A stretch of DNA of 37,291 nucleotides, from assembly GCA_013178155.1 (NCBI GenBank), contig JABLXH010000006.1, positions 1 through 37,291 on the forward strand, read 5' to 3'. The notes under the pieces were generated by a model. That model had not been told where the DNA came from, did no database searches, and saw only the letters and a program-made list of their open reading frames with translations. Position numbers and translations under genes: made by a program. Within the stretch, counting starts at the first letter, position 1. Each line of letters opens with the position of its first letter. The DNA comes from Armatimonadota bacterium (GTDB lineage: Bacteria > Armatimonadota > Zipacnadia > Zipacnadales > UBA11051). This document shows positions 507 to 32,163 of this stretch, piece after piece.

Positions 507-1667
507 CTAGTCGGCCGGAAGGGGCACCCGGTAGCGCACCACGTCGGAGATACGCAGGTCGTCCATTAGCATCCCTGGCGACCCCAGCCGCAACTCGGGT
601 CCGAGAAACCGGGAAAGCTTTGGGCGCGGCTCCCAGGCGATGAGCTTGCCATCTACAAACACCGTCAGCGCCTGCTCGTCCCAGCAGGCCGCGACGTGGC
701 GCCAGCAGGGCTGCCACGCCCAGGCGTACCCCATGGCGATGGCCCCCGACAGACGGCTCCAGCCGGTGCTGAACTGCAAGCCAACGTGGGAGTACTGGTC
801 CTTGCCGAGCCAGAGCCCTTCCGGACCGGGAATGCTGACCATGGGCTGCTGCACGCCGTTGTCCCCCGGTTCGAGCAGCTTGCACCACAGCTCGATGGTC
901 CCTGCCTTCGGGTTGAGGTGCTCATCGGCCGAACAGGCGACGTAGGCCCCCGCACCCAGGCGCAACGCTCGGCCGAAGCCTTCCTGGTTGTCCTCGGACG
1001 TGTACCCCACTTGCCCGCCGACGTAGAAGGCATCCTCGTCGAGGGGCTGCTCAAAGTCCAGGTAGAGCAGTGTGTGCTCATCGGCAGCGACCGGCGCGGG
1101 CGGCGGCCAGGGCGGGGTCGCCCATTGCGGCCCCGTCAGAAGGACCTCGTCCACCCGTGCCTCAGCGGCGCCCTCGGTGGCGATGGTCAGGCACCACTGG
1201 CGGCAAGCCGCCGGGGGCGTCCACGTAAGGGCCAGCTCGGTCCACTGTGCCTGCAGATCGAAGGTCTGCAAGGGCTGGTCGCGCCAGGGTTCGGCGGTGG
1301 CGTCAGTGGCGCTGACCGTGAGCTGGCCGGTTCCACAGGCCCAGAACCGCACCGTCCAGGCCTCCGGGCCACTGACGGGGATCGGCCCGTATCGGGCCGC
1401 AGCCCGGCCCTGCCGCGCTGTCAGATGCAGGTAACGCTGTCCGCCGTGAGCCGCCTCCCGGTTCGCCGGGCAGCGCCACTCGGCGTCGCCGTTGCTCCAC
1501 ACGGTCCAGGTGCGCGGGAGCCAAGTCTCCAGCGGGGGCAAAGCGCCCAACCGCGCCTGGTCGGCCGTCGGTCGAGGGGGCTCAACCAGCTCAAAGGAAG
1601 GGTTGGGCAGCAGGTTATCCTGGGCGAAGCTCAGGGCGGGGATTACCAGCAGCACGGCGATTAGCAT
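507..1667 (-). CDS. Secreted CBM plus LamG (concanavalin A-like) protein
   Basis: A 386-aa protein with an N-terminal signal peptide (MLIAVLLVIPALSFAQ, cleavage expected near residue 16-17). Residues ~18-190 look like a jelly-roll carbohydrate-binding module: NLLPNPSFE opening, a PVSGPEAWTVRFWACG strand, then a W-rich strand. Residues ~205-380 form a LamG/concanavalin A-like lectin domain: LLYLDFEQPLDED, GTIELWCKLLEP, WRHVAACWDEQALTVFVDGK, MDDLRISDVVRY. No catalytic motif is seen, so a glycan-binding or surface role is inferred. I chose the ATG at 1667 because the hydrophobic signal starts there and the upstream GH2 stop is only 2 bp away. An in-frame start at 1691 would overlap that gene and spoil the signal peptide. 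It is the last gene of the minus-strand cluster and ends in TAG. Confidence 0.8.
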   Translation of the reverse strand: MLIAVLLVIPALSFAQDNLLPNPSFELVEPPRPTADQARLGALPPLETWLPRTWTVWSNGDAEWRCPANREAAHGGQRYLHLTARQGRAAARYGPIPVSGPEAWTVRFWACGTGQLTVSATDATAEPWRDQPLQTFDLQAQWTELALTWTPPAACRQWCLTIATEGAAEARVDEVLLTGPQWATPPWPPPAPVAADEHTLLYLDFEQPLDEDAFYVGGQVGYTSEDNQEGFGRALRLGAGAYVACSADEHLNPKAGTIELWCKLLEPGDNGVQQPMVSIPGPEGLWLGKDQYSHVGLQFSTGWSRLSGAIAMGYAWAWQPCWRHVAACWDEQALTVFVDGKLIAWEPRPKLSRFLGPELRLGSPGMLMDDLRISDVVRYRVPLPAD

Positions 1668-1669
1668 CC

Positions 1670-4600
1670 TCACGGCGCTCCGCCCCCCCACATGCCTACC
1701 TTGCGTTGCCGCGCGATGAAGGCCAGGTTCTCCAGGTACATGCGCTGGCGGCTGTTGCCCTCGAAGTTCCCCAGCTTGCCCAGCCCGTCGCCGATGATCC
1801 GCGCGTTGACCAGGCTGTTGACGTCGTAGATGTCACCCAGGTAGACGTAGGCCAGACGCTGCCCGGCGGCGTTGTGGGTAACGACGTCGTCCACCAGCGT
1901 CACTCTCTGCCCCACGACCAGCGCCCGGTGCGCGGCCAGGGCTTGCTCATAGTAGGGGTCGTCCGGCTCGATGCCCGCGACGCCGATGTAGTGGACTTCC
2001 TCCACCTGCGTCCCGAGTTGCACCTTGATGGCGTGGGTCCCGACGGTATCGAGCACGACCCCTTGCCGGGGACGACTGACGGCTCCGGTAACGGCCACCA
2101 GCACCGGCACCGCGGCATAGCCCTCGTCGGCGTTGGCGATGAAGTCCAGGTCCCGTATGACCTTCTCGGGATGGGGGTTGGTCCACTCGTATCCTGGCAG
2201 GACCACGCCCTTCCGCATGGGGTTGTCGCCCTGCCAGGCAATAAACCCGCCGCCACGGCCCAGGGAGTCCGCCCAGACCGCGGGGTCTTGCCACCAGTCA
2301 ATGATCTGGCGCCCGTTCACGATGGGCACGTCCACGCTGGTTCCATCCTCGTAGTTCACCCGGTAGCGGAATGGCTGCTCCGTGGCCCAGGCCACCGAAT
2401 GGAGGAAGAACAGCACATCCGCGCGGCGGCCTATGGCGATACCGTTCACTTGCGCCGGCAGGTCCTGGTTGCCGGCGTTGATTGACTTCAGCACCACCGC
2501 ACCGCGGGGCGAGGCGATGTGGAAGGGGATGCCAGCGAGGGTCTGATCGCCCGTCGGCAGCGCCCGCATGTCGTTTTCGCCCTGGTTGGTCCAGCCTACC
2601 AGGCCGCTGGCCGGGTCATCGCGCAGGCCGCGGTTGGCGTAAGGGCTGAGGTCCACGGTGAAGAAGTCGTAGTTCTGTAGCCGCTGCTGCCGCGCTCGCG
2701 CCACCCCACCGGGGCCCCGCATGGTGCAACCGAGGTTCGTCAGCAAGAGGCTGCGCAGCCGAGCGACGGTCACGGCGCAGTCCGCCACGGGCTCATCCAG
2801 CCGAAGCTGGCTCAGCACCACGGCGCCCTGGCCCACGGAGGCCTCCAACAGCACTCCCGGTCGCGTCAGGCGGAGGGCCTTGCCGGCATCAGCGTCGGCC
2901 ACCGTGCAGAAGTAGTCGGCGATGAACTCCGCCGGCGGGCAACCCCCGTAGTAGGTTGACCACCAGTTGCCTTCGTGCCGCAGGATCGCGTAGTAGGCGT
3001 TGCTGGCCCAGTACAGGTCGTGGTTGGAGACACCTGCCAGCAGGCCGGCACTGGGGCCGCGGATGACGTGGTTCTGGATGTCGCTGGGCTCCTCAGTCAC
3101 CGGCGAGAGCCGTACCCGGCAGCCCAGCAGCTCCTCCACCAGCGCCTGCTTCTCCGGTGTGGCGCGGTGCAACAGGACGTTACCGCCGCCTGAGGCAAAC
3201 TGCCGCAGCGGGGTGATAAGGCTATCATCGAGGGCTGTTGCTACATCCACGATGGCGACGCGGTGGACGACCGGGGAAAGATCGGCCGGGCGGTCCGTCA
3301 GGTCGTCAAACAACACCTGGCTGTCGGCCAACGCCTGACGCAAGGGGCAGTTGGCTGCGGCGAAGAGAGCAGTCCCACCCGTTTGGCGGTAGACACCGGG
3401 AGTGGCCAGGTAGTCCAGCAGGTTCTGCAGGAGTGTCCCCGCCTGCGGCGCCGAGTCCGCCTTCTCGGTCAGCAGCAACTGGCAAAGTATGATGCTGCCG
3501 CGGCCCTCGTACTGCTCCAGCAGTGGGCTCTCCAGGATGCCCTCCCCGGAGCCGGCGTCTACCAGGGGCAGCCAGTTGCCTTGCGACGGCTTGCGGTAGT
3601 TGCCGGCACTGACCCTGTGGTCCGCGGCCCACCAGCGCAGGTCCCAGTCAGTCAGGCTCCGCAGCAGCGGATGGTCGGTGGCGCGGGCATAGGCCATGGT
3701 GCAGTTGCGCTGCCTGGCCATGGTCACTGGCACCGGCAGGAAGTCCGGGGCTTCGGTCTGCTCCAGGATCGCCAACTTGCCGCCGCCGCGCACAAAGGCG
3801 AGCAGCTCCTCGCGCCACGGCCCCTCGGGGGGCTGCTTGAGGGCATCTCGGCCAATGACCAATGCGCCCTGCTCCGGGACGCGTAGCTCCGCCAACACCT
3901 CAAAGGGCACCCGGTGCAGGCGCAGCAGCGAGGCCAGCCGGCCCTCCGGATCGTAGACCGACAGGGCCAGTCCCGTTGGCGCACGGAGACTCAGGCGAGG
4001 GGTGATGACCCAGTCACGGGTCTCGGCGTGGACAACTCGTCTGCCCTCCAGCAGCTCGACTCGCCACTGCACGGCCGTCGGTTCGCGGACCACCGGCAGA
4101 GGCACCTGAAGCGTGACCCGCTTGAGTTCGGCCGGTGCCAGGGTCAGGGTCTGGCTTGCTCCGGCGGTTTCCTCCATAGTGACCGTCACCGAGGTGCTGA
4201 CCGACGCCCCGGTGTTGGACGCGTAGATGGAGGTGCTGCGGGCCACCTCCGGCGGAACCCCCGGCAGGAGTCGCCAGCGCAAGGCCAGCCGCGCCGGCCG
4301 GCGCAGGTCATTGTGGACATTGACCTCCCGCTCCAGAACCTGGCCGCAGGGGAAGACGCGGTCCTCTTGTTTGAGCACCAGAGCCTGGGGCGGCTGCATG
4401 AACATGGGCACATAGGTGTCGATGAGCGCAAACTCCGCGTCGCGGAAGCCATTGAGGAAGAACCTGGAGGAGTCCAGCCAGGCCTTGCCATAGGCGTTCG
4501 TGCTGGCATAGGGCTCATCGCCGGCGATGATGCTGGCCCCCAGGGGCTTGTTCAGGGTCGCCGGCCAGAAGGCCTCACCCACGGTCAGCAGCTTGGTGCC

Positions 4601-6952
4601 CAGAGTGATGGGGCCCATGCTGTAGGGCACTACGGTCTTGCCGTCCAGCGGCCCCCACCAGGCGCCGTTGGGCAGGTCCGGAAAGCTGGTCAGCTCCCGC
4701 GGGTAGTGCAGGGCGTAGTGCTCCCAGGCGCCCATCAGGTCGCCGTCCGCCTCCCACTCGATCGGGCGGCCCATGCGGTCGAACTCACGCATGGCCTGAG
4801 CGATCTTCACCTGCCAGCGGTTGCCCAGCACCTTGGCTGCTTCGCCCTGGTAGATCCAGCCCCACATGTTCTCATTGCCCGCGCTCCACATGCAGACGGA
4901 AGGGTGGTTCTTGTAGACATCCATGACGTGGAGCTCATGCGCCAGCACGGCGTTCCAGAACCGCTGGTCAAAGGTGAAGTTGACCTGGTTGCACTCGCTC
5001 TCCAGCTTGATCATCAGTCCGGTCTCGTCAGCCACCTCTGCCGCCTCGCTCACGCCCGCCTGACCGTGCGTGCGCGTGAGCTGCACCATGAGGTCGTCCA
5101 CGTTTCGGCGCTGCCACAGCCAGATGGCAGCCAGTCGCTCGCCGGGGTCGGTCAGACCGGTGGCCTGTGACAGGCCGCTGGCGCCCCCGGCCCACTGGCT
5201 GCGGATCTTGGTGCGCACGCCGTTGAGGATGAACGAGATACCGTCAATCCATAGCTCGCGGAATCCGAAGCGGACCACGTGCCGGTCTGCCATGCCACGT
5301 TCCGGTCGCAGGTCAGTCTGCAGAATGTACAGATGGGGGTCTTCGGGCCACCAATAGCGAGGGTTCGTCCAGGTTGCCTCGACAAGGCGCTCCACGGTCT
5401 GACCGGCCGGGACGGTCATCTCCACCGGACCAAACAGCCTGACGGGCCGCCCGGCGTCAAGCACGCTCGGCGTGAGCACAACCTTCTGGGCCTCTGCGCC
5501 GCTATTGCGCAGACGGTAGTGCAGGCTGAGCTTGCGCTGGCGCACGCTGGTCACGACGAAGACGTCCTCGACGTATACAGCCGGCCGGGCAGTCAGGTAA
5601 ACCGGGCCGCCCAGACCCAGGTTGGCGGCGGCGTTGTAGCCCGCTACATCCACCATCCCGTCCTTGTAGATCGGCTCCTCACCCGCGCGGACGCGCTCCT
5701 GATTCCGCGGTGAGTAGGCAATCCAGTCACGGACAGCAACCAGAAGCTCGTTGATCGCGCCCGGCTTGAGGGCAGTTGTCACGTCCACCTCAAAGGGCTG
5801 GGAGCCGTGCAGTTCGTGCCCGACCGCCGTTCCGTTGAGATAGACCCAGGCCTCGGTCATGGCCTGGTCGAAGCGCAGCAGGAGACGCTCGCCCCTCAGG
5901 TACTCCGGTACGGTGAACTGACGCCGGTACCAGGCGCAGTGAGCCGGCGTGTTGGGCTGCACAGACGGTACCCGAATGGCCTGCCATGTGGCGTCGGCGG
6001 GAGGGGCCGTCCCGGGTTCGCTTCCCGGCACGTAACACATCTCCCACTCACCGTTGAGACAAAACGTGGGTCGTGGCCCGGAGGTAGTGTCGCTGACGAA
6101 GTACTTGCAGAGCCGCACCGGCGGGTAGACGCCCTCAGAAGTGGCTTCGAGCGTCAGGCGGATCCGGTGGCTGTCACCGGGCTTCAGCTCAAGAGCAGGA
6201 CTGACCGTCTCGCCCGGCTGTAGCGTGAGGGTCTGGTTGCGCTGCAGCAGCACTCGCTGCTCGTAGTCCACAGCGCGGACATCGAGTCTTACCACGCGGG
6301 GCAGGGCGCCGGGGTTGTGGAGTTCGCAGACCTGTGTGAGAGTGTTTTCGTCGCGCCGCGTGTCAAGCCACCGGGCTGTCAGCCAGTAGTCCTCCGGGCG
6401 GCCCCAGTTGGGCGGCATGAGCGCCTGCACGGCCCCCGTCGGCGGCGTCCCGTAGAGCCGTAGCGGACCAACGACCACCGCCCCTCCCTCAGGGACCCAA
6501 ACCACCCGCACACTGTCCCCCGGTTTGAGGCTAACCGGCCGGTCAACACGCATCTCCGCCTGATACCAGCGCTTCTCGGCGGCGTCCTCGGGCCGAAGCG
6601 GTTCCGTGTGGCTCGTCCACAGGAGGCGCCGGTCGTTGTGGTACAGGTGAACCTGGTGGTAGGTGAACTCGGAGAACCCCTGGTAGCTCTCCCCCGCCAC
6701 AAGCAGCCCGAGGTAGTACCCGCCGGCCGGGATTTCCCCGAGGGTCCACTGTAGCTGCGCCTTGCGCTGGCGCTGACCTGGCAGACGCACGCCATCAAGG
6801 CCCGCACCAAAGTACCCCGCCAGGGCTTCAGGGGCTCCCACGCCCGTCTCCGCCACCAGGGTGCCGGCGGTCGGCGGGACCTGGTACTGGGGCGCGGCGA
6901 CAGCTACCGCGCTGGCGAAGAGCAGCCCGGAGAGGGGAGGAAACAGTCGCAT
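1670..6952 (-). CDS. Very large secreted GH2-family glycoside hydrolase with C-terminal SNase-like domain
   Basis: A 1760-aa protein. The start is the ATG at 6952, which opens a signal peptide (MRLFPPLSGLLFASAVAVAA) and has an AGGAG 10 nt upstream. The open frame runs on to 7213, but that part overlaps the neighbouring gene and has no signal. Domain order: N-terminal binding module (~20-150), Ig-like region, GH2 sugar-binding jelly roll (~290-420, FCLNGEWE), Ig-like domain (to ~555), TIM barrel (~560-830), amidotransferase/trimerisation-like Rossmann domains (~1020-1400), a further beta domain, and a staphylococcal-nuclease-like domain (~1619-1760). The GH2 acid/base candidate is E694 in SAGNEN; the nucleophile candidate is E793 in VGEAFW. 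GH2 enzymes are retaining beta-galactosidases, mannosidases or glucuronidases; the substrate cannot be read here. The length is about twice that of a usual GH2. It follows the GH71/99-like gene by 50 bp, in the same cluster. Confidence 0.85.
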   Translation of the reverse strand: MRLFPPLSGLLFASAVAVAAPQYQVPPTAGTLVAETGVGAPEALAGYFGAGLDGVRLPGQRQRKAQLQWTLGEIPAGGYYLGLLVAGESYQGFSEFTYHQVHLYHNDRRLLWTSHTEPLRPEDAAEKRWYQAEMRVDRPVSLKPGDSVRVVWVPEGGAVVVGPLRLYGTPPTGAVQALMPPNWGRPEDYWLTARWLDTRRDENTLTQVCELHNPGALPRVVRLDVRAVDYEQRVLLQRNQTLTLQPGETVSPALELKPGDSHRIRLTLEATSEGVYPPVRLCKYFVSDTTSGPRPTFCLNGEWEMCYVPGSEPGTAPPADATWQAIRVPSVQPNTPAHCAWYRRQFTVPEYLRGERLLLRFDQAMTEAWVYLNGTAVGHELHGSQPFEVDVTTALKPGAINELLVAVRDWIAYSPRNQERVRAGEEPIYKDGMVDVAGYNAAANLGLGGPVYLTARPAVYVEDVFVVTSVRQRKLSLHYRLRNSGAEAQKVVLTPSVLDAGRPVRLFGPVEMTVPAGQTVERLVEATWTNPRYWWPEDPHLYILQTDLRPERGMADRHVVRFGFRELWIDGISFILNGVRTKIRSQWAGGASGLSQATGLTDPGERLAAIWLWQRRNVDDLMVQLTRTHGQAGVSEAAEVADETGLMIKLESECNQVNFTFDQRFWNAVLAHELHVMDVYKNHPSVCMWSAGNENMWGWIYQGEAAKVLGNRWQVKIAQAMREFDRMGRPIEWEADGDLMGAWEHYALHYPRELTSFPDLPNGAWWGPLDGKTVVPYSMGPITLGTKLLTVGEAFWPATLNKPLGASIIAGDEPYASTNAYGKAWLDSSRFFLNGFRDAEFALIDTYVPMFMQPPQALVLKQEDRVFPCGQVLEREVNVHNDLRRPARLALRWRLLPGVPPEVARSTSIYASNTGASVSTSVTVTMEETAGASQTLTLAPAELKRVTLQVPLPVVREPTAVQWRVELLEGRRVVHAETRDWVITPRLSLRAPTGLALSVYDPEGRLASLLRLHRVPFEVLAELRVPEQGALVIGRDALKQPPEGPWREELLAFVRGGGKLAILEQTEAPDFLPVPVTMARQRNCTMAYARATDHPLLRSLTDWDLRWWAADHRVSAGNYRKPSQGNWLPLVDAGSGEGILESPLLEQYEGRGSIILCQLLLTEKADSAPQAGTLLQNLLDYLATPGVYRQTGGTALFAAANCPLRQALADSQVLFDDLTDRPADLSPVVHRVAIVDVATALDDSLITPLRQFASGGGNVLLHRATPEKQALVEELLGCRVRLSPVTEEPSDIQNHVIRGPSAGLLAGVSNHDLYWASNAYYAILRHEGNWWSTYYGGCPPAEFIADYFCTVADADAGKALRLTRPGVLLEASVGQGAVVLSQLRLDEPVADCAVTVARLRSLLLTNLGCTMRGPGGVARARQQRLQNYDFFTVDLSPYANRGLRDDPASGLVGWTNQGENDMRALPTGDQTLAGIPFHIASPRGAVVLKSINAGNQDLPAQVNGIAIGRRADVLFFLHSVAWATEQPFRYRVNYEDGTSVDVPIVNGRQIIDWWQDPAVWADSLGRGGGFIAWQGDNPMRKGVVLPGYEWTNPHPEKVIRDLDFIANADEGYAAVPVLVAVTGAVSRPRQGVVLDTVGTHAIKVQLGTQVEEVHYIGVAGIEPDDPYYEQALAAHRALVVGQRVTLVDDVVTHNAAGQRLAYVYLGDIYDVNSLVNARIIGDGLGKLGNFEGNSRQRMYLENLAFIARQRKVGMWGGGAP
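1673..2098 (-). other. Segment encoding a staphylococcal-nuclease-like (SNase) OB-fold domain fused to GH2
   Basis: The last ~142 residues of the GH2 protein follow the SNase pattern: a VVLDTVGTHAIKVQL strand pair, VEEVHYIGVAGIEPDD, GQRVTLVDDVVTHNAAGQRLAYVYL, VNSLVNARIIGDGLGKL, and a closing helix with KVGMWG. In nuclease numbering, the Arg of the canonical RLIG strand is replaced (VHYIG) and the DTPE turn reads AGIE. The catalytic Glu and the second Arg (GQRLAYVY) remain. By homology this is probably a degenerate or binding version rather than an active nuclease. Confidence 0.65.
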
Positions 6953-7002
6953 CGTGCCATCGCTCCTGGCCAGCCTGGGCCTGGCCCTTCGCCCCGTGCG
7001 GC

Positions 7003-8760
7003 TCACTCGACGTAGCAGTAGTTGAACCGCCCGTTGGGGGCCACGTCGCCCTGGTCTATGAAGTCCATGATGTCGCCGCGCTCCGGGACGTTGTCGGCCC
7101 ACTTGAACTCCAGCGTCAATCGGCCGCTTCCCAGGAGGGCGCGCGGCACGGCGAGGTGCAGCTCCCTGCCATCCCACTCCAGTGACGCCTGGCCGATACA
7201 GCGCCAGTTCCAACCCGAACCGCTGTGTTGTTCCACCGAGCAGGTCCCTGGCTGCGGACGATGGCGGTTCACGAGGAGGTCATAGCCGTTCCAGCCGGTA
7301 TCCGCGCCGCCATCGGTGTTCAGCAGCAGTACCATCCAGTTGCTGCCCTCGGGCGCCGTGATAGCGGCGCGCGTGCGGGCGTAGAAGAAGACGTGTCTGT
7401 CATCGCGCGCGACCCGCAGGCGCTCAAAGTCGTTTCGGCCCGAGGTGTTCCGGTAGACAGTGCCTTGCCCATAGCCCGGGTGGTCCCGGTGGGCGGTGTC
7501 GCCCAGGTCATCGAGATACAGGGGGTTCACCTGCGCCCATTGCGCGAAGGGCCCCGGCACGGCGATGGTGCGTGGCGCAGAGGGTCGAGGCGCAGGTCGC
7601 ACACCCTTGTAGCGCCGGATGTAGGAGACCATCTGGTAGTAGTAGGCGTCGCCATGGCCACCCCGCATGGGCTCGATGTCGCGACTGTACTCCTGGCTGT
7701 ACTGGTCCACGAAGAAGGTCTCGCCTTTGGGCAGTCGGCGGCCCAGAAACCCCGCGTTGCCGTCGCTCAGGAAGCGTTGCGCGATCCACTCATTCCAGCC
7801 GGTGATGAACACGAACTGCGGGTCCACCTCCAGCGCGCGCTCCCACTGCTCCTGGAAACACAGTCCCGCAGTGGTCTGCAGTTGGTCAGGCGGCGGTTGC
7901 TTGCCGGCGTGGAAGCTGCGGCCGATGTTGCTCGTGGGGTGCTGCGCCACGCAGACGGAGAGTTCCTCGGGCACGCCGGGCTCATGCCAACCTGGCTGCT
8001 GGGGGTGACTGTCGAGCCACGGCCACTTGTCCCGCCCGTCGCCGAACCACCCGCCGGGGTTGCTCCAGGCCCAGGACTGGCGCAGCGTGAAGAAGTCTTT
8101 CAGGTCGGCGTCGAGGTCCTCCGCCGGGGCCAGGATGATGGGCTTACCATGCCAGCGAAACCACAGATCAGGGTAGTAGCCCTTGCCGTAGAAGCTGTCG
8201 TAGAGGTGTCGCACCACACGGTCTGCGCCGGCGTTGGCCAGGAAGCCGATCTGGGGCGTGGGCTGCCCAAGGCGACGCATCCTGTCGTAGACCCTGCAGA
8301 TGGTCAGGAAGTTGTGGTCATAGGTGAAACCATTGGTAACATCGAGGAACATGACGTCCACGCCGGCATCAGTGAGCATCTGTGCGTGTTTCCGGATGAC
8401 AAACTCGTCGTCCATGACGTAGTAGCCCAGATGTGGTTCGCCCCACCAGTGGAAGGCGCCCTCCGGTCCCCAGGCCGGGTTCTTCGGGTCGGCCGCGAGC
8501 AGTTTGCTGATGTCATAGACCCGGTCGCGCGGGTGTCCCCCCTGCCAGGTAAAGCCGAAGATGCCGACAAAGCGGCCCTCGCGCCGCGGGCCACATTCGG
8601 CGAACCCCGGCAGGCGCCGTCCCAGGCCATCGGTCGCCGCCCAGGTATCACTCATGGTGTCGCGGAGTGTGGGAGCCTCATCAGCCACAGCCAGCACTTC
8701 CCCGCAGGCGAAGATGAGCACGGCAGCCAAGAGGCGGGCCAGCAGTCTGGCCTGTGACAT
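7003..8760 (-). CDS. Secreted GH71/GH99-like glycoside hydrolase with C-terminal DOMON/CBM9-like domain
   Basis: A 585-aa protein with a signal peptide (MSQARLLARLLAAVLIFACGEVLA). Residues ~60-375 match the GH71/GH99-like barrel common in planctomycete-type genomes: FVGIFGFTWQGGH, YDISKLLAADP, FHWWGEPHLGYYVMDDEFVI, DAGVDVMFLDVTNGFTY, WHGKPIILAP, and FITGWNEWIA with E324 in the GWNEW motif typical of GH99/WbsX-like proteins. Residues ~400-580 resemble a DOMON/CBM9 carbohydrate-binding domain (HVFFYARTRA, LLLNTDGG, WNGYDLLVNR). GH71 enzymes act on alpha-1,3-glucan and GH99 on alpha-mannosides; which applies here is not decidable. GGGGAG lies 6 nt before the ATG. It lies 17 bp downstream of the YVTN gene and ends in TGA. 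Confidence 0.8.
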   Translation of the reverse strand: MSQARLLARLLAAVLIFACGEVLAVADEAPTLRDTMSDTWAATDGLGRRLPGFAECGPRREGRFVGIFGFTWQGGHPRDRVYDISKLLAADPKNPAWGPEGAFHWWGEPHLGYYVMDDEFVIRKHAQMLTDAGVDVMFLDVTNGFTYDHNFLTICRVYDRMRRLGQPTPQIGFLANAGADRVVRHLYDSFYGKGYYPDLWFRWHGKPIILAPAEDLDADLKDFFTLRQSWAWSNPGGWFGDGRDKWPWLDSHPQQPGWHEPGVPEELSVCVAQHPTSNIGRSFHAGKQPPPDQLQTTAGLCFQEQWERALEVDPQFVFITGWNEWIAQRFLSDGNAGFLGRRLPKGETFFVDQYSQEYSRDIEPMRGGHGDAYYYQMVSYIRRYKGVRPAPRPSAPRTIAVPGPFAQWAQVNPLYLDDLGDTAHRDHPGYGQGTVYRNTSGRNDFERLRVARDDRHVFFYARTRAAITAPEGSNWMVLLLNTDGGADTGWNGYDLLVNRHRPQPGTCSVEQHSGSGWNWRCIGQASLEWDGRELHLAVPRALLGSGRLTLEFKWADNVPERGDIMDFIDQGDVAPNGRFNYCYVE

Positions 8761-8777
8761 GAAACACTCCCCGGGTG

Positions 8778-9782
8778 TCAGTCGGTGGGCAGGTCTCCGG
8801 GCCAGTCACCACCAGGCGTCTCCGCCAGTTGGATATTGGCCAGAAACTCGCCGCTGCGCCCGTCCAACACACTGACAACGTTGAGTGCGCGGTTGGACAC
8901 ATAGACACGGTGGTTCGTTGAGTCCACCTGGATACCTACCGGCATGTCAAAGCCCTGGACACTGCCGCCGACGGCCATGGTCCGAGGGTCAATGATGGCC
9001 ACGCAGCGCGCGTTGATGCAGGCCACGTAGACCCAGTTCCACGTCTTGTCGCGGCCCAGGCCAATGGCGCCGGCGGGCACCGGGATGGAGGCGGCAAGTG
9101 TGTTGTCGGCGGTATTGACCACCGCCACGGAGTTCGACCCCAGGTTCGCCACGTAGAGCCGGCCGCCCGCGGCGTCCAGTAAGACGGCGAAGGGTCTCTC
9201 GCCCGCCCCCACCTCCGCCACCGTCTCTCCGCTGCCCGCGTCCAGCACCGATACCGTGCCGGCTCCGAAGTTGGAGACATAGAGCTTGCCTGCCTTAGGG
9301 TCTACCGCCACGGCAAAAGGCTTGTCACCGGTCCCGTAGGTCCCGATCACTTCGTTCTTCTCACCGTCAATGACCGACAGACTGTCATCGAGCTGGTTGG
9401 CCACGTAGACCCGCTTGGCCTCGGCATCGACCGCCACACCACCGGGTCCGCGCCCTACCTCGATGGTTGCGATCACCTCATCGGTCTCGCCGTCAATGAC
9501 ACTGACGGTGTCGTCCAGTGCGTTGGGGACATAGACGCGGTTGGTCTGGTCGTTGATGGCGATCTGGTCGGGGCGATTGCCGATCGTGATGACCTTCACA
9601 GGCTGGTTTGTCTTGATGTCAATCACGCTGACGTTAGCCGTGCCCATGTTGGACACGTACAGTTTCCCCGTCTTGGTGCTCAGCGCCATCCAGTGACACA
9701 GACGTCCTTCAGGTAGGTCCTGGGCCGCTGCTCCGACGACCGCGCCCACCATTAGAAGAGAAACAGCCATCAGTCTGCCCAT
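8778..9782 (-). CDS. Secreted YVTN-family beta-propeller protein
   Basis: A 334-aa protein: signal peptide (MGRLMAVSLLMVGAVVGAAAQ) followed by about seven tandem repeats of ~42 residues. Each carries a YV(S/P/A)N-type strand and a VSVID-type strand, for example VYVPNALDDTVSVIDGETDEV, VYVANQLDDSLSVIDGEKNEV, LYVSNFGAGTVSVLDAGSGET and VYVSNRALNVVSVLDG. This is the classical YVTN/surface-layer propeller signature. Nearly the whole mature chain is propeller, with no enzymatic module. A surface or periplasmic binding or scaffold role within the glycan cluster is inferred from position only. The intergenic gap to the preceding TIM-barrel gene is 73 bp. Confidence 0.88.
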   Translation of the reverse strand: MGRLMAVSLLMVGAVVGAAAQDLPEGRLCHWMALSTKTGKLYVSNMGTANVSVIDIKTNQPVKVITIGNRPDQIAINDQTNRVYVPNALDDTVSVIDGETDEVIATIEVGRGPGGVAVDAEAKRVYVANQLDDSLSVIDGEKNEVIGTYGTGDKPFAVAVDPKAGKLYVSNFGAGTVSVLDAGSGETVAEVGAGERPFAVLLDAAGGRLYVANLGSNSVAVVNTADNTLAASIPVPAGAIGLGRDKTWNWVYVACINARCVAIIDPRTMAVGGSVQGFDMPVGIQVDSTNHRVYVSNRALNVVSVLDGRSGEFLANIQLAETPGGDWPGDLPTD

Positions 9783-9855
9783 GCTGCCTCATCTACCTTC
9801 GCTTACCTGTATGGCACAGGAATCATTTTCTCCACTCTCATGGGCACTCACCTGC

Positions 9856-11256
9856 TCATGGCTCGCAGCCAGCGAAGAGCGGCTCTGCAGCAGCCCGGGC
9901 TGATTGCACCCGGTAGACGGCTTCCTGGCCCGGCGCCAGCCAGTGGCGTATCGTGAGCCCCTCGGGGGTGCGCTCCGTAGCGCCCGCGCAATAGGCCCCG
10001 CCCTCGCGCTCACGCCCGCTCCAGTCCCAGGAGAAGACCTTCACGTCCTCACCGGGGAAGGTCAAAGCGGCGTTCACGCTTTCCGTCGTGGAGTTGTTGA
10101 CCAGCATCACATACCGCTGTCCCTGTAGGTCAGCGAAGTAGCCCAGAAGCAGCGGATGCCCCTCCTTGTCAGGCTTCACAGCCGACACCAGGCCGTTAGG
10201 GGTGAAGGCCTGGCCATTGCCGATGGCCTCGGGCGTGAAATGCACACCGGTGGACACCAGGCGGGTGAACAAGTCGCCATAGAACCGATGAAAGCTCTTC
10301 TGCACCCGTCGGATGTCGTAGTAGGTCTGGGTGCGTTCCCAGTGCTCATCAACCGGCGAGAGCCGGTAGTTGTCGTGCGGCTGGCGCATGTAGTAGAAAA
10401 ACCACAGGATCCCGTTGGCCCCGGCGCAGACCGTTGTGTTGAACTGCCAGCGGATGTCGTCATAGTTGGGGCAGCGGTAGCGGAAGTGCCCGACCGATAG
10501 GACCGTGTTCCAGAAAGGTACTCCGTTGCGCACCGAGGCCTCGCGGTAGAGCCGCAGGTTCTCGTAGTAGCCCGCGACGTTGCCTGCCATCTGGCCGTAG
10601 AAATCGTAGCTGAGCAGCACGCCTGGAGCGGCGGCGCAGAACTCGTCCAAGTACTCCGGCCAACTGGTGTTGCCCACCACGCTCTCGGCTCCCGGCCACC
10701 ACGGCAGGTGGTTGCCGAAGGGGTGCAGGTGTGGGGCGATCTCGCTTTGGATGCGGGCACACTCGGCGAAGGCATGCTTGGCGTCCCTGCCGGGCTCATC
10801 GCCGACATGGAAGCCAAAAAGCGCCGGGTGGTCGCCGAACTGAGCCACGGCGGCCCGAATGCCATCGGCGTAGTCTGGGGCGGCATGGCCGTCGGGCCCC
10901 ACCTTCGCGTACCCCCGGGGGTCACACAGGATCAGCTTCATCCCTCGCTCTTGCGCCCAGTCCAGCATCTGGCGCATGTGGGCCACCTGCTCCGGCTTCG
11001 TCGGGTCATAGCTGGGGCTCTGCGGCACCGTGAAGCCGGCGTCAGCCCACTCATCTACCTCGGCCTCGTCCATGTAGCGCAGGTGCTCGTTGAGGTTGGT
11101 GTAGCTCCAGAAACTGATCGGGTATTTCCCCAGGCCGAAGGACTGCGTCTTCTCGACGATGGAGCGCATCTGCGGCGGCACCTCCTGGGCGTTGGCGGAC
11201 AGAGTGAGAATCAGGACCGGCAGACACACCAGACCGGGGACAGGGCGCAACCGCAC
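9856..11256 (-). CDS. Secreted TIM-barrel protein, putative glycoside hydrolase (family not assigned)
   Basis: A 466-aa protein. I chose the GTG at 11256: AGGAGG (11265-11270) lies 8 nt upstream, and the residues that follow form a signal peptide (LVCLPVLILTLSANA, then QE). The frame stays open to 11781, but that part overlaps the upstream membrane-protein gene. Barrel-like features: YPISFWSYTNLNEHL, WADAGFTVPQSPSY, RGMKLILCDPRGYAK, ALFGFHVGDEPG (E of DEPG is a plausible acid), GVLLSYDFYGQM, GILWFFYYMRQ, and a C-terminal beta-sandwich (RYVMLVNNSTTESVNAALTFPG, then QEAVYRV). This layout resembles clan GH-A / GH42-type enzymes, but I recognise no specific family. The gene sits 35 bp after the DUF6785 gene, in the cluster. 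Confidence 0.68.
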   Translation of the reverse strand: MRLRPVPGLVCLPVLILTLSANAQEVPPQMRSIVEKTQSFGLGKYPISFWSYTNLNEHLRYMDEAEVDEWADAGFTVPQSPSYDPTKPEQVAHMRQMLDWAQERGMKLILCDPRGYAKVGPDGHAAPDYADGIRAAVAQFGDHPALFGFHVGDEPGRDAKHAFAECARIQSEIAPHLHPFGNHLPWWPGAESVVGNTSWPEYLDEFCAAAPGVLLSYDFYGQMAGNVAGYYENLRLYREASVRNGVPFWNTVLSVGHFRYRCPNYDDIRWQFNTTVCAGANGILWFFYYMRQPHDNYRLSPVDEHWERTQTYYDIRRVQKSFHRFYGDLFTRLVSTGVHFTPEAIGNGQAFTPNGLVSAVKPDKEGHPLLLGYFADLQGQRYVMLVNNSTTESVNAALTFPGEDVKVFSWDWSGREREGGAYCAGATERTPEGLTIRHWLAPGQEAVYRVQSARAAAEPLFAGCEP

Positions 11257-11291
11257 GACAACCACCTCCTCTGCCAAGCATGCTCGCAGCC

Positions 11292-13250
11292 TCACTGCCA
11301 GAAGGCGTAGGCCGGAACGTGCCGCACCATGGCATAGATGATCCAGAGCGCTCCAGTGCCCACATCGCCGAGGACCAGGCCATAGGCCAGTAGTGGCAGA
11401 GCCTTGACCGCACCGAAGCCGCCCCACCGGGCGCAGGCCAGCTTGATGAGCCAGGCCAGGCACATCGGAAACCACATGTGGGCCATGTACCAGGTGGTGC
11501 AGAGAGCAAACCCCGCCGGGTGCAGCGGCCAGCCCACCCAGTTGCTGCGCACGGTCTGCAGGCCCCAGTAGCCCAAAAAGCCCAGCCCTGCTGCCAGCAT
11601 TCGCCCCCATGCCACCGGCGCATCGGCGTTGATCCATCCCGCCAGCTGGTTCCATGCCTCGCCGGCGAACCAGGTGTGGAAGCTGCCACGGTAGGTTCCC
11701 AGGCCCCGATTGTACGAAAGGAAGAGGGTCCAAAACCAGCCCCAGGCCAGCCCCAGGGAGATGAAGGGGACGGTGGCCCACAGCAGCTTGCGCCCGTCGA
11801 GGCCGGTCCGCGCGGCGAAATAAAGACCCTCCAACTGATGGGGAAAGGGGATGTTACGCATCCCGCGCGTGAAGCCGTGGAAGACCGACAGGGTGGTGAG
11901 GTTCTGCAGGCTCAGGACCCGCGGTCCCAGCCACGTGCCGTAGATTGTGGTCGGCCCCATGCGCTCCAGCTCGTGGGTGGGCAGGCCCATCTCGGCGCGA
12001 ATGCGCCCGATGATGACCACCATGAACAGGTACTGAATGAAGAAAGCAAGCGAGACGCCGGGCGAGAGTCTGTAGGCGATACCCATGGCTACCAGCACGC
12101 CCAGACCCAGGAGAAGGATGAGCAGGGCCGTGCGGTAGCTCATGGGCTCACCCGGCTCGCGCTGGCTGGTGTGCAGGGCACGCTGGACCAGCTCCGCCAG
12201 ATGCCGCCGCGCCGCCCACAGCGGGAAGCCGACTAGGGCCAGGTAGCCCCCGGCGGCGGTGCTATAGCGTACATCGGCCGGCTGCTGGAACCCAAGCCAG
12301 GCAGACACGATCATTTCGAAACGCCAGAAGAGGAAGAAGAACCACAGAGACAGCGACAGCTCTGCGGGTAACAGCAACCCCAGTCCCAGGATGAAGGGGT
12401 AGAGGCACACGTAGAACATGTCGGCCGCCGCATTCCACGGGCGACCCAGGGGTGCCAGATACTTGCCGATGTCCAGCCGGGCGTCCCACATGGCGGTGGG
12501 GAAGCTGGGGATGCCGGGATAGTACGTATGAAGCCCATTGAGCAGGTTGATCAGCGCGGGGATGGCGACCCCGACCCAGAAGATGGACTGGCGCAGGAAG
12601 TCCAGCCTCGGCTGCACGATGGCGAAGGGGAGTTGCACGATGGGGAAGCCCATGCGCTCCTGTTCGATCCAGCGCTTGCGCAGGAGCTGGCCGATGCCCA
12701 CAGGCGCAGTCCACAGCACGCTCATCAGCAGCCACCAGCGGAAGACCGGGCCCAGCCAAACTTGCAGGTTGCGCCACTCCAGGATGCTGCTGTCGCCCTG
12801 CCACAGGCGCTCCAGCGCTCGCGGGTCCTGGACGGTGATGGTCGTGGGGATGAGTTTCTGGAACAGGTCCTCCCAGTGGTTCTCGGGGGTGGCAAAGTGG
12901 AAGGCGCCCTGCATGGTCATGAAGGTGCATTGCATGGAGTCCATGCCCGCACCGCTGGTGGAGACACAAAGCAGGACCCACAGGGCCAGCATCTCGGCCG
13001 GGCTCAGCGACAGCCGCGGCCAGCGCCGGTGGACGAACCCATTCACCCCGCGGACCACCAGCAGGATGAACAGCACATTCCAGAAGAGCGCCACCAGAGT
13101 GGGATCAAAGATGTTGCGCTCATAGGAGAGGAACAGGATGAAGAAGTTGTTGAGCGGGACCAGCATCAGCGCCAGGACGAGGACGCGCACGGTGACGCCG
13201 CGCGCCCGCCCGTCCGCTGCGGCGGCTACCTGGGGAACGCCTGCTTGCAT
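11292..13250 (-). CDS. DUF6785/DUF6784 polytopic membrane protein (OPT-like putative transporter)
   Basis: A 652-aa protein with ten or more hydrophobic segments across its length. It carries hallmarks I associate with the DUF6785 (N-terminal) and DUF6784 (C-terminal) pair: LSPAEMLALWVLLCVSTSGAGMDSMQ-type helix (12945-13030), ENHWEDLF...VQDPRALERLWQGDSS, RKRWIEQERMGFPIVQLP, FAGEAWNQLAGWIN, and SNWVGWPLHPAGFAL followed by WFPMCLAWLIKL. These families belong to the oligopeptide-transporter-like superfamily; their substrates are undefined. It is the only transporter in the window and lies inside the glycoside-hydrolase cluster, so uptake of glycan or glycoconjugate products is inferred. AGAGG lies ~7 nt before the ATG. 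The gap to the preceding gene is 22 bp. Confidence 0.8.
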   Translation of the reverse strand: MQAGVPQVAAAADGRARGVTVRVLVLALMLVPLNNFFILFLSYERNIFDPTLVALFWNVLFILLVVRGVNGFVHRRWPRLSLSPAEMLALWVLLCVSTSGAGMDSMQCTFMTMQGAFHFATPENHWEDLFQKLIPTTITVQDPRALERLWQGDSSILEWRNLQVWLGPVFRWWLLMSVLWTAPVGIGQLLRKRWIEQERMGFPIVQLPFAIVQPRLDFLRQSIFWVGVAIPALINLLNGLHTYYPGIPSFPTAMWDARLDIGKYLAPLGRPWNAAADMFYVCLYPFILGLGLLLPAELSLSLWFFFLFWRFEMIVSAWLGFQQPADVRYSTAAGGYLALVGFPLWAARRHLAELVQRALHTSQREPGEPMSYRTALLILLLGLGVLVAMGIAYRLSPGVSLAFFIQYLFMVVIIGRIRAEMGLPTHELERMGPTTIYGTWLGPRVLSLQNLTTLSVFHGFTRGMRNIPFPHQLEGLYFAARTGLDGRKLLWATVPFISLGLAWGWFWTLFLSYNRGLGTYRGSFHTWFAGEAWNQLAGWINADAPVAWGRMLAAGLGFLGYWGLQTVRSNWVGWPLHPAGFALCTTWYMAHMWFPMCLAWLIKLACARWGGFGAVKALPLLAYGLVLGDVGTGALWIIYAMVRHVPAYAFWQ

Positions 13251-13272
13251 TGGTTACCTCTGAGGAGTACAG

Positions 13273-16200
13273 CTACCAGGTCACAACGTACCGTCCCACG
13301 CCCGCCTGGCCCGTCCTGAACGTCACGAACCCGTTCTTCACCTCCGCTGCCACCGCCGCCATCGGCGCCTGAGTGCCGGCAGCCCGGGCCTCGACCCTCA
13401 CGGCGCTGTCCGCAATGCTCGCTCCAGGCACAATCGCCTTCAGGTTCAGACGCACCGTGAACTCACGGTCGCGCGGGTACGGGAATACCGTGAGACTTCG
13501 CTCCCCCCGGTTCACCTTGACCGAACCATCCGTGGCCACTTTGCCAAAGTCCAGCATCGTCCCCGGCGGGTTCATGTGGGCGGTGAAGTCAGCCTCCGCC
13601 TCCCTGGCCTCGGCCGCAACCTGCGTGATGTCGCCGAGCGCTATGTCAGTGATGACGCCATCTTTCCTGGTGAGCTTCAGTTGCCCAATCACAACACGGT
13701 TGTTGCCCATGCGCGGGCCCTGCAGCAGCACGCGCTCACCGCGCCACAGGCCGATGGTGATGTAGTAGTCATCGAAGTCGGGGGGCACCTCGATCTCATA
13801 GGGCCCATCTACCAGGACCTGTCCCGGTTGCCATTGGCTGGTGGGCACCGGCGTCTGGTGGTCCTGTTGGAAGACGATCTGCTCCAAGTGGTCCTTGGTC
13901 GGGTTGACAAAGTGAACGAAGCACCCGGCGTCAAAGCTCATGGTGTCGTTGATGTCCCACTCATACGTCAGCCGCACCTTGTTGCCGCCCAGGTAGGCAA
14001 AGTCCTTCAGGCGCGGGGTGATGTTCTTGCGGTGGGCGCGATAGGGCATGTTGAAGTAGGTGCGGGCGTCCGCAAAGATGAACTCCGGGCACTCAGCATA
14101 ATCGGCGAAATGCTCGCCCTTCATTGCCGTATAGACCCGGGTATCGGGTCCCGTGGCCAGGAAGCCCCATTGCGGCAGGAGGGCGCCCCGCTCCACGCGC
14201 CAGGGTTCGGGACTCCAGTTGACCCACAGCGTCAGGCCGCTGTCGTAGATGATGCGCTGCCGCCAGGTCTCGCCCAGGGCCAAAGCGACGCTGCCCGGCA
14301 CCATCTGCCCGTCCACTTCGTAGCTGATGTCCTTGACCTTGGCGGCCCCATAGAGCCGCTGCACAGGGTGCATCAGGTGATGCTCCTTGGCGACCCACTG
14401 GATGTTGTCGGTCTGCGAGCTGCCGATGAACCCGGCGTGGCCGTAGGCCAGCTCCTGGGCGCGGTACTTGTCTACTTGCTCAGCAGTGCCCGTGCTGACG
14501 CCCAGGCTGTGACCATAGCCCTGGCGGAACCAGCGCTCGTAGTACCCCATGCCGTGGTTGACCATCTGCGGGTGCAGTTTGAGCAGGTCAAGGTCGAGGA
14601 AGGGGATGTGGTCCTCGCCACCAGTCACCTGTGCCTCCACGCCGTCGCACTTCCCCGCCCAGTAGAAATGGTTGGCGCCTTCTCCGAACAGTGGCCCGCC
14701 GTGAGTGTCGCGCATGTACTCGAACAGCTCGCCGTCGTACCGGACCTTGGTGCGGGCCATGGCTGCTCCCGGCTGACTGGCTTCGTGGTCAAGTTGGTGC
14801 CAGGGCGGCACGCAGGTGTGTACATCCAGGTATGCGGCTGTCGTGTGGTAGGTGTCGTGGATGTAGGGTGAGTTCTGCTGCGCGTAGCCCAGAGCGCGGT
14901 TGCACTTGAGGCCGAAGCTTTGCACTCCGGTCCCCGCGTTGAACCAGGCCGGCGAGGGGGTCCCATCTGCCCGCAGTACCCGCGCTGTTGGATCATAGGA
15001 CGGAGCGTCGGGGTACAGGTCAATGTAGTTCTCGTGCACCGACCAGACGTAGCCGCACTCATTGGCCGCACGGCCGAACTCAATCATCCCCTCGTCGCCG
15101 CCGAAATCCGGCATAGCCGGGATGTGGTCGGGCAGCTTGACGTCATAGCCCCAGCGCTGCCAGACGTGCTGGATGATCGCCAGATGGTCCACTCCATTGT
15201 CCTTGAGGTCCCGCAGGTTGGCGGCATCACCAGCAAAGCTGTTGTCGTGGTGGGCCCAGATGTCCAGCATGATGCGGTCGCCCAACAGCCCCAGGTACGG
15301 AGACGGCTCCCAGGGGATGTTGGGCAGTACCTCGTTGACATTGGGTGATACGGCAATGTAGCCGGACTCGTGGAGGGGGTTGCGGGTCCCGTCGGTCTTC
15401 GGCTCGTAGGTGGCCTCACTTTGCGGGCAATAGGAGGAGTTGGACTGGGTCCAGTCCAGGTAGCGGCTGACAAAGACGTTCTCGGCGGGCAGGTAGCTCA
15501 CCGTGCCGCCCCCGCCCCAGACGGGCGGCAGGTACGGAACGCTAAGCTGCCGGCGCAGAGCCGCACCCGCAACGCCGCCCAGAGAGAAGCGCGATATGAC
15601 GGGTGTGTCGCAGGTGACGTCCACCGTCAGGGCCTTACCCCTGATGCCGAAGCGCCACTTCACCCGTGCTGGCTGCCCCTTGGCGTCGTAATCATAGGTG
15701 AACTCGACGCCGTTGGCATCGCCAGTGCTTGTGTCCACCAGACGGCCCGAGGTGAGCGGAACCTGCTCCTCCTTCCCATCCGCTTTCACCACCGCGGTGA
15801 GCACGCCACCGGCCGCCGGCCGGAAGGTGCGGCCATCATCCACGGTGACCGTGAGGTCATCCAATGTGCCCGTCCATGGCCGGTAGTGGTAGACGATGCG
15901 AGCATCCGCCCCCTCATAGACGAAGGCGAAACCGCCGGCGGGAAGCTCGAGCAGGTTCTTGTGGGGCAGCAGATTGCCTGGGACAACGCCCTGGTCCGAT
16001 CGGTTCGCGAGAGCCGTCAGGCTGGCGCCCTGGCTGGCTCGATAGGCCTTGCTGGACAGCAGCCTCTCCAGCAGCGCCTTCCGCCCGCCAGTGGCGTCGC
16101 CGGCAGTGATCCGCGCGTTGCCGAAGAACGAATAGTCGAAGCTTGGGTCGTTGTCTGGCCCCGGCTCCACTTGCAGCCGCAACACGATCTCTTCACCGGC

Positions 16201-16707
16201 CAGTTCTGAGAGCTCGAAGGTCTGGTCCCGCCATTCTGCTCCGGCATAGTGCTCGCGCATCAACTCATCGGTCTGGCCTCCGTGGGTCAGGTACACGCTG
16301 AAGGTCACCCCATCGCTCTTGCCGGGTGCGGTCACCTCCTCCAGCATGGCGATGCCGAAGCCGAGGGTGATGGGCTTGATGTCGGGCAGTCGCAGGTGGT
16401 AATCCACCCACGCTTTGCCGGCAGGCACACGCCACGGGGAGTGCAGCAGTATGCCCCGGCGACCGTTGGCTGGCCGGTTGGGGTCATAGGAGATGCCGCT
16501 GGGCTCCACGAAGTGGCCGGTCCAGGACACGGGCATCAGGACCTCGGGCCCGTCGTAGGACTGGTAGCCCACCTGGTAGAGGCCGATGTCATCCAGCAGT
16601 GTCTCACCCGGCGGCAGAGGGACGGTCAGGTCCTTCTGGGGCCAGGCCGCGACAGCGAGAGACAACGCAACGGCTACAAGGGCTACCACTCGGTCCGCAC
16701 TCAGCAT
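13273..16707 (-). CDS. Large secreted putative glycoside hydrolase (DUF5696/GH101-like barrel)
   Basis: A 1144-aa protein with a signal peptide (VVALVAVALSLAVAAWPQ). Residues ~20-200 form an N-terminal beta-sandwich (VDYHLRLPDIKPITLGFG, FSVYLTHGG, IVLRLQVEPG). Next comes a galactose-mutarotase-like beta domain (~230-430) and a TIM-barrel-like core (~480-800): LAIIQHVWQRWGYDVKLPDH, FGRAANECGYVWSVHENYID, AAYLDVHTCVPPW, LFGEGANHFYWAGK. C-terminal beta domains follow. The Asp of YLDVHT and the Glu of FGEGA are plausible catalytic acids. The overall plan resembles DUF5696 and, more distantly, GH101 endo-alpha-N-acetylgalactosaminidase. I am unsure of the family and cannot give a substrate. It lies 18 bp after the UroD-family gene and ends in TAG. 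Confidence 0.65.
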   Translation of the reverse strand: MLSADRVVALVAVALSLAVAAWPQKDLTVPLPPGETLLDDIGLYQVGYQSYDGPEVLMPVSWTGHFVEPSGISYDPNRPANGRRGILLHSPWRVPAGKAWVDYHLRLPDIKPITLGFGIAMLEEVTAPGKSDGVTFSVYLTHGGQTDELMREHYAGAEWRDQTFELSELAGEEIVLRLQVEPGPDNDPSFDYSFFGNARITAGDATGGRKALLERLLSSKAYRASQGASLTALANRSDQGVVPGNLLPHKNLLELPAGGFAFVYEGADARIVYHYRPWTGTLDDLTVTVDDGRTFRPAAGGVLTAVVKADGKEEQVPLTSGRLVDTSTGDANGVEFTYDYDAKGQPARVKWRFGIRGKALTVDVTCDTPVISRFSLGGVAGAALRRQLSVPYLPPVWGGGGTVSYLPAENVFVSRYLDWTQSNSSYCPQSEATYEPKTDGTRNPLHESGYIAVSPNVNEVLPNIPWEPSPYLGLLGDRIMLDIWAHHDNSFAGDAANLRDLKDNGVDHLAIIQHVWQRWGYDVKLPDHIPAMPDFGGDEGMIEFGRAANECGYVWSVHENYIDLYPDAPSYDPTARVLRADGTPSPAWFNAGTGVQSFGLKCNRALGYAQQNSPYIHDTYHTTAAYLDVHTCVPPWHQLDHEASQPGAAMARTKVRYDGELFEYMRDTHGGPLFGEGANHFYWAGKCDGVEAQVTGGEDHIPFLDLDLLKLHPQMVNHGMGYYERWFRQGYGHSLGVSTGTAEQVDKYRAQELAYGHAGFIGSSQTDNIQWVAKEHHLMHPVQRLYGAAKVKDISYEVDGQMVPGSVALALGETWRQRIIYDSGLTLWVNWSPEPWRVERGALLPQWGFLATGPDTRVYTAMKGEHFADYAECPEFIFADARTYFNMPYRAHRKNITPRLKDFAYLGGNKVRLTYEWDINDTMSFDAGCFVHFVNPTKDHLEQIVFQQDHQTPVPTSQWQPGQVLVDGPYEIEVPPDFDDYYITIGLWRGERVLLQGPRMGNNRVVIGQLKLTRKDGVITDIALGDITQVAAEAREAEADFTAHMNPPGTMLDFGKVATDGSVKVNRGERSLTVFPYPRDREFTVRLNLKAIVPGASIADSAVRVEARAAGTQAPMAAVAAEVKNGFVTFRTGQAGVGRYVVTW

Positions 16708-16725
16708 TGTCTTCCTCTCCCGGGG

Positions 16726-17925
16726 TCAGAGGGTGGGCAATGTCTCATACATTGCCATGATGTTCTCGGGCGGCACGTCTGGCTGGATGTTGTGCACCTG
16801 GCAGAAGACGAAACCCCCGCCGGGCGCCAGATCACCGCAGCGGCGGATGACTTCTTCGCGCACCCGGGCCGGGGTACCTTGCGCCAGCACCGTCTGGGTG
16901 TCACAGCCGCCGCCCCAGAAGCTCAGGTCACCACCGAACTCGCGCTTGAGTTCAGCGCTGTCCATGCCCGCGGCTGTCACCTGCACCGGGTTGATGGCGT
17001 CCACTCCCAGCTCGATCAGGTCCGGGAGGACCTCGCGGATCGAGCCGCAGGAGTGCAGCAGGAGCGGCTTTCCGCTCAGCCGCTTGACGAGCCCCCAGAG
17101 GCGGGCATGGTAAGGCTTGACCATCTCCCGGTACAGCGGCAGCGAGAGCTGCAGGCCGCTCTGCGTGCCCAGGTCGTCATTGACCTGGATGACGGTGCAG
17201 TACTCGCCGACCGCCGCCATGTACCGCGCGACCCGCTCCTCGTAGCTGTCTACCAGCCGCCCCATGAGCGCGTGGGCCAGCCGCTTGTCGGCGATCAGGT
17301 CCACCATGAAGCTCTCAAAGCCGCGCAATGTCTGTCCGGCAGCCAGCACATGCACCCAGAGGTTGCCCACAATCGCCCGGTCGGTGTGTTCGTGGAGCCA
17401 CTGGGCCTTGCGGCGCAGGTCGGCGTAGTCCTCGTCGCAGTAATCCGGCCAGTCGAACCCGCGCAGGTGCGCCAGCCCGTCCTCGATGTCAGCCGGCGAC
17501 GAGGCTTTGGCCAGAGCGTGGTGACAGGTGTCCAGGTAGTGCGATCCCGCCGGACGCCGTGCCACCACCGTCCCGTCGGCCGCCAGCAGCTCCGTCGCCC
17601 CATCGGCCGTCTCCCGCAGCCGGGCCCGCTCCGGCACCTCGCACTCGGAGCCGTCGGGCAGGCGCCAGGGCTTCCACCGTCGCGGCTCGATGAGCAGCGG
17701 CAAGGCATCCGCGCCGACGCGGTCCAGCACCGCGGGCTCGACCTTGGCGATCATCTGCGACAGGTCGTAGACCTGCGTGCGTCCGCCGGCCAATCCCAGG
17801 TGCCGCTTCAGTCGGCTATAAGCAACCGCATGGATGCCCGATGACTCCAAGGCGCCCAGGTCCACCGGGGTGCGGTCCGCCTCCCGGTGGGCCAAAGCAG
17901 CCTCGATACGCTGGCGGGGGGTCAT
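16726..17925 (-). CDS. UroD-family protein (MtaA/CmuA-like methyltransferase fold)
   Basis: A 399-aa cytoplasmic protein with no signal peptide. The N-terminus MTPRQRIEAALAHREADRTPVDLG is the standard opening of uroporphyrinogen-decarboxylase-superfamily proteins. It keeps the zinc pattern of methylcobamide:CoM methyltransferases: H291-x-C293 in LLLHSCGSI and C341 in WGGGCDTQ, followed by GTPARVREEV. That argues for a zinc-dependent methyl-transfer enzyme rather than haem-pathway HemE. No corrinoid protein or HemE partner is nearby. It is the first gene of the eight-gene minus-strand cluster and diverges from the Gfo/Idh/MocA gene across a 178-bp spacer. UroD-like genes often accompany glycan loci in such genomes; their role there is not known. 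The family's usual length is 340-400 aa. Confidence 0.85.
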   Translation of the reverse strand: MTPRQRIEAALAHREADRTPVDLGALESSGIHAVAYSRLKRHLGLAGGRTQVYDLSQMIAKVEPAVLDRVGADALPLLIEPRRWKPWRLPDGSECEVPERARLRETADGATELLAADGTVVARRPAGSHYLDTCHHALAKASSPADIEDGLAHLRGFDWPDYCDEDYADLRRKAQWLHEHTDRAIVGNLWVHVLAAGQTLRGFESFMVDLIADKRLAHALMGRLVDSYEERVARYMAAVGEYCTVIQVNDDLGTQSGLQLSLPLYREMVKPYHARLWGLVKRLSGKPLLLHSCGSIREVLPDLIELGVDAINPVQVTAAGMDSAELKREFGGDLSFWGGGCDTQTVLAQGTPARVREEVIRRCGDLAPGGGFVFCQVHNIQPDVPPENIMAMYETLPTL

Positions 17926-32088: not shown

Positions 32089-32163
32089 GGTCTCTCCACT
32101 CCACACGGCACTGGGTGAGTTCAGAGGAGGTTCGCCTGCGGGTCCTATAGCACCTGCAGCACT

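Follow-up and report, generated by a model that had tools for sequence, protein, structure and literature searches.

A diversified family of permeases with a predicted OPT/YSL fold in Armatimonadota, and the non-conserved gene neighbourhood of one member

The DUF6785/DUF6784 proteins of Armatimonadota are probably a diversified family of inner-membrane importers with the OPT/YSL fold, and the run of eight genes in which the member studied here lies is one local, non-conserved neighbourhood. Judging from the predicted fold, the family represents an uncharacterised expansion of OPT-fold transporters and appears to be worth attention, being both the largest importer family counted in this 5.5-Mb genome (TRAP and APC, for example, fall outside the count) and multi-copy across much of the phylum. 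Were the substrates of DUF6785 known, the uptake physiology of the Armatimonadota could be deduced from their genomes, and if the OPT fold carries sugars the known range of functions of that fold would be widened. The names DUF6785 and DUF6784 were found in no paper of the library searched, and a literature search on OPT proteins or polysaccharide-utilisation loci in Armatimonadota found nothing relevant. An earlier sequence-only reading had taken the eight genes for a glycan-utilisation system built around the permease, which as posed is ordinary and mostly unsupported.

Gene content of the eight-gene run

The window, that is the whole 37,291-nucleotide stretch of DNA that was analysed, belongs to an Armatimonadota metagenome-assembled genome of 5.53 Mb in 211 contigs with a completeness of 95.6%. 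The open reading frame list and a gene caller that relies on codon usage and was trained with the same genome agree with the earlier reading on eight tightly spaced, co-directional genes, which run on the minus strand from 17925 to 507 and are flanked by opposite-strand genes at 18104 and 500:

16726-17925, minus strand: URO-D protein related to the MtaA/CmuA corrinoid methyltransferases, 399 aa (Pfam URO-D, E 3e-22)
13273-16707, minus strand: large secreted GH129-like protein, 1144 aa (weak or borderline DUF5696; ortholog profile against NagBb)
11292-13250, minus strand: DUF6785/DUF6784 permease with a predicted OPT/YSL fold, 652 aa and the main object of interest (Pfam scores of 414 and 80 bits)
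9856-11256, minus strand: secreted TIM-barrel glycosidase-like protein, 466 aa (no Pfam match; fold of a model)
8778-9782, minus strand: YVTN/YNCE beta-propeller, 303 or 334 aa depending on the start (Pfam YNCE, E 6e-13; TIGR02276, E 2e-52)
7003-8760, minus strand: secreted 585-aa protein, possibly a GH99-like barrel (no Pfam match; phmmer to 4acy at E 0.12 only)
1670-6952, minus strand: secreted GH2-type multidomain protein, 1760 aa (Pfam GH2 domains)
507-1667, minus strand: LamG_3/CBM4_9-like carbohydrate-binding protein, 386 aa (Laminin_G_3, E 7e-07, above the cut-off; CBM_4_9, E 2e-04, below it)

The gaps at the successive junctions are 18, 22, 35, 73 or 166, 17, 50 and 2 bp, the alternative at the fourth arising from the ambiguous start of the propeller gene (ATG at 9782 or 9689). 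Of 20 control stretches of 17-20 kb fetched from the same genome, 2 contained a run of at least eight co-directional genes with gaps below 100 bp, so the tight spacing by itself carries little weight. A scan of the run for sigma-70 promoters and terminators gave no signal above that of shuffled sequences, and the operon thus stays unproven.

The run can fairly be described as a permease surrounded by secreted hydrolases, since the neighbours that had been called hydrolase-like appear, from their sequences and models, to be mostly glycosidase-like (GH2, GH129-like and a TIM-barrel glycosidase fold). Residues 339-694 of the 1760-aa GH2-type protein match beta-galactosidase and glucuronidase structures with E-values down to 3e-20; the same protein has a staphylococcal-nuclease-like (SNase-like) match at its C-terminus (residues ~1660-1755), which is an odd fusion. 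An ortholog profile (A5) of the 1144-aa protein matched the GH129 alpha-N-acetylgalactosaminidase NagBb (5wzn) at E 2.4e-16. Part of the catalytic domain appears to be shared with GH129/DUF5696, including two aspartates, D522 and D628, which are invariant in 10 sequences and align with D330 and D435 of NagBb, presumably its catalytic pair; the window protein differs in being far larger, with the match confined to 143 residues. The 466-aa protein is predicted to fold as a TIM barrel with a beta-sandwich, resembling GH5, GH27, GH13 and other barrels in a low-confidence model (pLDDT 63). The GH71/99 label of the earlier reading retains only a weak GH99 hint, the match of the 585-aa protein to the endo-alpha-mannosidase 4acy; no relative of this protein was found in the fetched loci.

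The 399-aa URO-D protein matches the NCBIfam model mtaA_cmuA at E 3e-13, which is under the curated cut-off of that model, and it differs from the MtaA/CmuA methyltransferases of its superfamily also in belonging to a set of about 90 URO-D domain matches within a single genome. This number is about twice that of DUF6785, and two of the matches lie in the window (16726-17925 and 20611-21729). The rest of the window contains a creatininase-family protein (25586-26278), a protein that matches SpoIVB S55-like peptidase, Ig-like and propeller domains (28102-32106) and a DUF4838 protein (34287-35378).

Family assignment and predicted fold of the permease

The permease exceeds the curated Pfam cut-offs in both of its domains, with 414 bits against 25 for DUF6785 (PF20581) and 80 bits against 26 for DUF6784 (PF20580). 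Its nearest named relatives are found in Armatimonadota metagenome-assembled genomes (CG06_66_21, 67% identity; Candidatus Zipacnadia, 48%), and a search of a plasmid collection revealed no DUF6785 relative. Structure prediction from a six-sequence alignment, from which the locus L012 was omitted owing to a likely frameshift, yielded one good AlphaFold model out of five (pLDDT 71, pTM 0.76; the other four had pLDDT 40-44). When this model was compared with the PDB by Foldseek, barley yellow stripe 1 (HvYS1) was matched with an E-value of 3e-08, a probability of 1.00 and a TM-score of 0.68, and VIA-align superimposed 551 of the 652 residues on HvYS1 at 3.8 Å and 10% identity with a Z-score of 23.2, the runner-up reaching 4.3. 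HvYS1, an OPT/YSL protein, is the only convincing PDB fold match for the DUF6785/DUF6784 model, and the designation of the permease as OPT-like is therefore supported.

The likeness to the OPT/YSL transporters (PF03169; barley YS1, PDB 7wst and 7wsr) extends over the whole length of the model, while the differences are the identity of about 10%, the lack of a PF03169 match and the presence of about 43 copies in this genome. None of 36 DUF6785 paralogs matched the PF03169 profile at E<=1, and the genome searched with this profile gave no match and hence harbours no canonical OPT. Sequence searches of the PDB with the single permease or with a profile of the 36 paralogs returned nothing useful and did not recover HvYS1. 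Since the fold is predicted and the PF03169 sequence match is absent, we would file DUF6785/DUF6784 as a distant fold relative of OPT outside PF03169. The polar positions conserved among the paralogs include E86, N124, R191, E198, R348, R416, E420, H577 and K603. Characterised OPT/YSL members transport peptides or metal chelates. HvYS1 itself works as a symporter driven by protons, and its mechanism is elevator-like (PMC9691689).

Copy number in the genome and the phylum

The genome gave 45 DUF6785 matches, which correspond to 43 distinct loci as two genes are split; several are truncated at contig ends. The median pairwise identity among these paralogs is only 27%, compared with 66-68% between the window copy and its orthologs elsewhere, and the split of this copy from its paralogs must consequently be old. 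The other importers counted in the same genome comprise about 18 MFS genes (22 matches), 19 ABC-importer permease domains and 7 SSF genes (8 matches). As the dozens of divergent DUF6785 paralogs outnumber every other importer family counted, they probably provide a major pathway for solute uptake in this genome, which lacks SusC/TonB receptors. Among 291 Armatimonadota genomes DUF6785 was detected in 206, and counts of first-look candidates, as distinct from fully scored genes, were at least 10 in 119 genomes and at least 20 in 51, with a maximum of 48.

The absence of a SusCD-type receptor, which the earlier reading had pointed out, holds: a search of the whole assembly for TonB plug domains gave no match, which means that there is no SusC, and no SusD domain is present among the eight proteins. 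TonB plugs were found in 101 of the 291 genomes, with at most 7 per genome, and a SusC-type expansion was not seen in the phylum with or without DUF6785. Plugs being few throughout the phylum regardless of DUF6785, their absence here is no specific evidence of replacement.

Comparison of neighbourhoods

The two best permease orthologs from a search of the class (G274:C111, 68% identity; G251:C240, 66%) and the ortholog in CG06 (67%) all have neighbours that differ from those in the window, apart from proteins distantly related to the 466-aa barrel protein that are encoded close to the CG06 gene. Conversely, orthologs of the 1144-aa protein (~58-66% identity) occur in eight genomes of the class and none of them adjoins a permease ortholog. 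The nearest permease paralog in the same genome (L032, 53%) has no other gene in common with the window. A conserved eight-gene locus is ruled out by this synteny, and the proposal that a polysaccharide-utilisation locus is conserved around the permease thereby fails, its orthologous permeases and hydrolases lying in unrelated neighbourhoods. The fold argues for an OPT-like importer, and the comparison does not support a glycan importer belonging to a conserved locus.

The same picture emerged for the family at large. Of 40 DUF6785 genes of this genome, 11 had a co-directional partner at a distance of up to 150 bp and 14 had none. The co-occurrence of DUF6785 with glycan enzymes and UroD, suggested earlier as a check, was largely not borne out, as neighbours vary between genomes and between paralogs and include housekeeping genes: at 20 DUF6785 loci in other genomes of the phylum they take in NusA, Lon, SRP54 and ribonucleotide reductase at one extreme and GH127, PL8 and sugar-acid enzymes at the other. 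A Pfam tally of DUF6785-adjacent genes in the same genome found no family recurring above background, for which the 20 control stretches served, and a tally at the loci of the other genomes yielded no recurrent family either. Two candidate partners were rejected since they were not enriched, namely URO-D (15/40 loci against 7/20 in the background) and the GFO/IDH oxidoreductases (13/40 against 11/20).

With signal peptides called by a simple hydropathy rule, large secreted proteins occupied 17 of 74 slots beside DUF6785 and 59 of 544 background slots (p=0.007, uncorrected and one of five measures); as co-directional partners they accounted for 8/74 and 31/544, respectively (p=0.12). The over-representation of large secreted proteins beside DUF6785 is thus weak.

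Discussion

Based on its model, the DUF6785/DUF6784 gene would encode a polytopic inner-membrane importer, which by analogy to HvYS1 may perform proton-coupled, elevator-type symport of a small organic solute. The neighbouring secreted enzymes (GH2, GH129-like, TIM-barrel and possibly GH99-like) may set free a small compound on the outer side of the inner membrane, and the paralog in the window could import it; that the permease takes up what the neighbouring glycosidases produce is a sensible guess, suggested by proximity rather than by comparative evidence. Import of glycan-derived small solutes is, as a function of this permease, plausible although on the unlikely side. The most likely picture would be one of diversified secondary importers encoded mostly by single genes, some of which may lie beside enzymes that make their substrate.

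What such importers carry may be read in several ways. It is quite possible, though we do not favour it, that the classical task of OPT proteins has been kept, with uptake of oligopeptides or metal chelates and with neighbourhoods that are incidental; HvYS1 as the only fold match and the lack of a fixed neighbourhood are both consistent with this. About 43 divergent paralogs seem in our judgement to exceed the needs for peptides and metals, and the lack of a sequence relation to OPT, together with the failure of siderophore and peptidase families to recur in the neighbour tally, argues in the same direction. Alternatively, the permease may tentatively be seen as one of many independent single-gene importers of sugar-related molecules (glycosides, sugar acids or methylated sugars) with no conserved operon. 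GH123, GH106, NAGidase, DUF4838 and GFO/IDH genes are scattered among the neighbours in the same genome, GH127, PL8, MR_MLE and DHDPS adjoin DUF6785 in other genomes of the phylum, and the weak excess of large secreted neighbours would fit; this is opposed by the abundance of sugar-catabolic and glycosidase genes elsewhere in the same genome and by the substrates of characterised OPT/YSL members, which are peptides or metal chelates (for HvYS1, see PMC9691689). Finally, a polysaccharide-utilisation locus of non-Bacteroidetes type, with all eight genes in a single operon and the permease importing an oligosaccharide made by the hydrolases, could draw on the co-directional spacing, the glycosidase-like neighbours, the missing TonB plug and the slight excess of large secreted proteins, but is very improbable considering that the gene set is kept neither at the 66-68% orthologs nor at the nearest paralog, that 14 of the 40 DUF6785 genes lack a co-directional partner and that NusA, Lon, SRP54 and ribonucleotide reductase are among the neighbours in the phylum.

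The family resembles the SusC/SusD loci of Bacteroidota in that secreted glycosidases are found near the transporter and in that a multi-copy transporter family has diverged within one genome. It differs in that the Armatimonadota genome has no TonB plug and that DUF6785 is a polytopic protein of secondary-carrier type, whose partner genes are not conserved and many of whose copies stand alone. We consider it unlikely that DUF6785/DUF6784 corresponds in Armatimonadota to the SusCD/TonB expansions, in the sense of an OPT-fold family that takes up a wide range of glycan-derived or other organic substrates as the main uptake system.

Some individual loci deserve mention beside our preferred reading of a diversified family of predicted OPT/YSL-fold importers. 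The best lead to a substrate is given by the DUF6785 subfamily at L032 (G000:C112:162600-182500) and L091 (G258:C90:18500-38400), whose members share 53% and 46% identity with the copy in the window and keep two partners at both loci, one of 425 aa encoded upstream and an amidohydrolase-like one of ~275 aa downstream. At L011 (5968-14006) a DUF6785 gene lies immediately upstream of an apparent F-type ATP synthase operon, as judged from protein sizes and starts, which is a further sign that the family has no fixed context. MTTB-type genes of the trimethylamine methyltransferase family adjoin two DUF6785 genes, one of them at L015 (3502-4953), and these neighbours, along with the URO-D/MtaA relatives, are hints of corrinoid-dependent demethylation.
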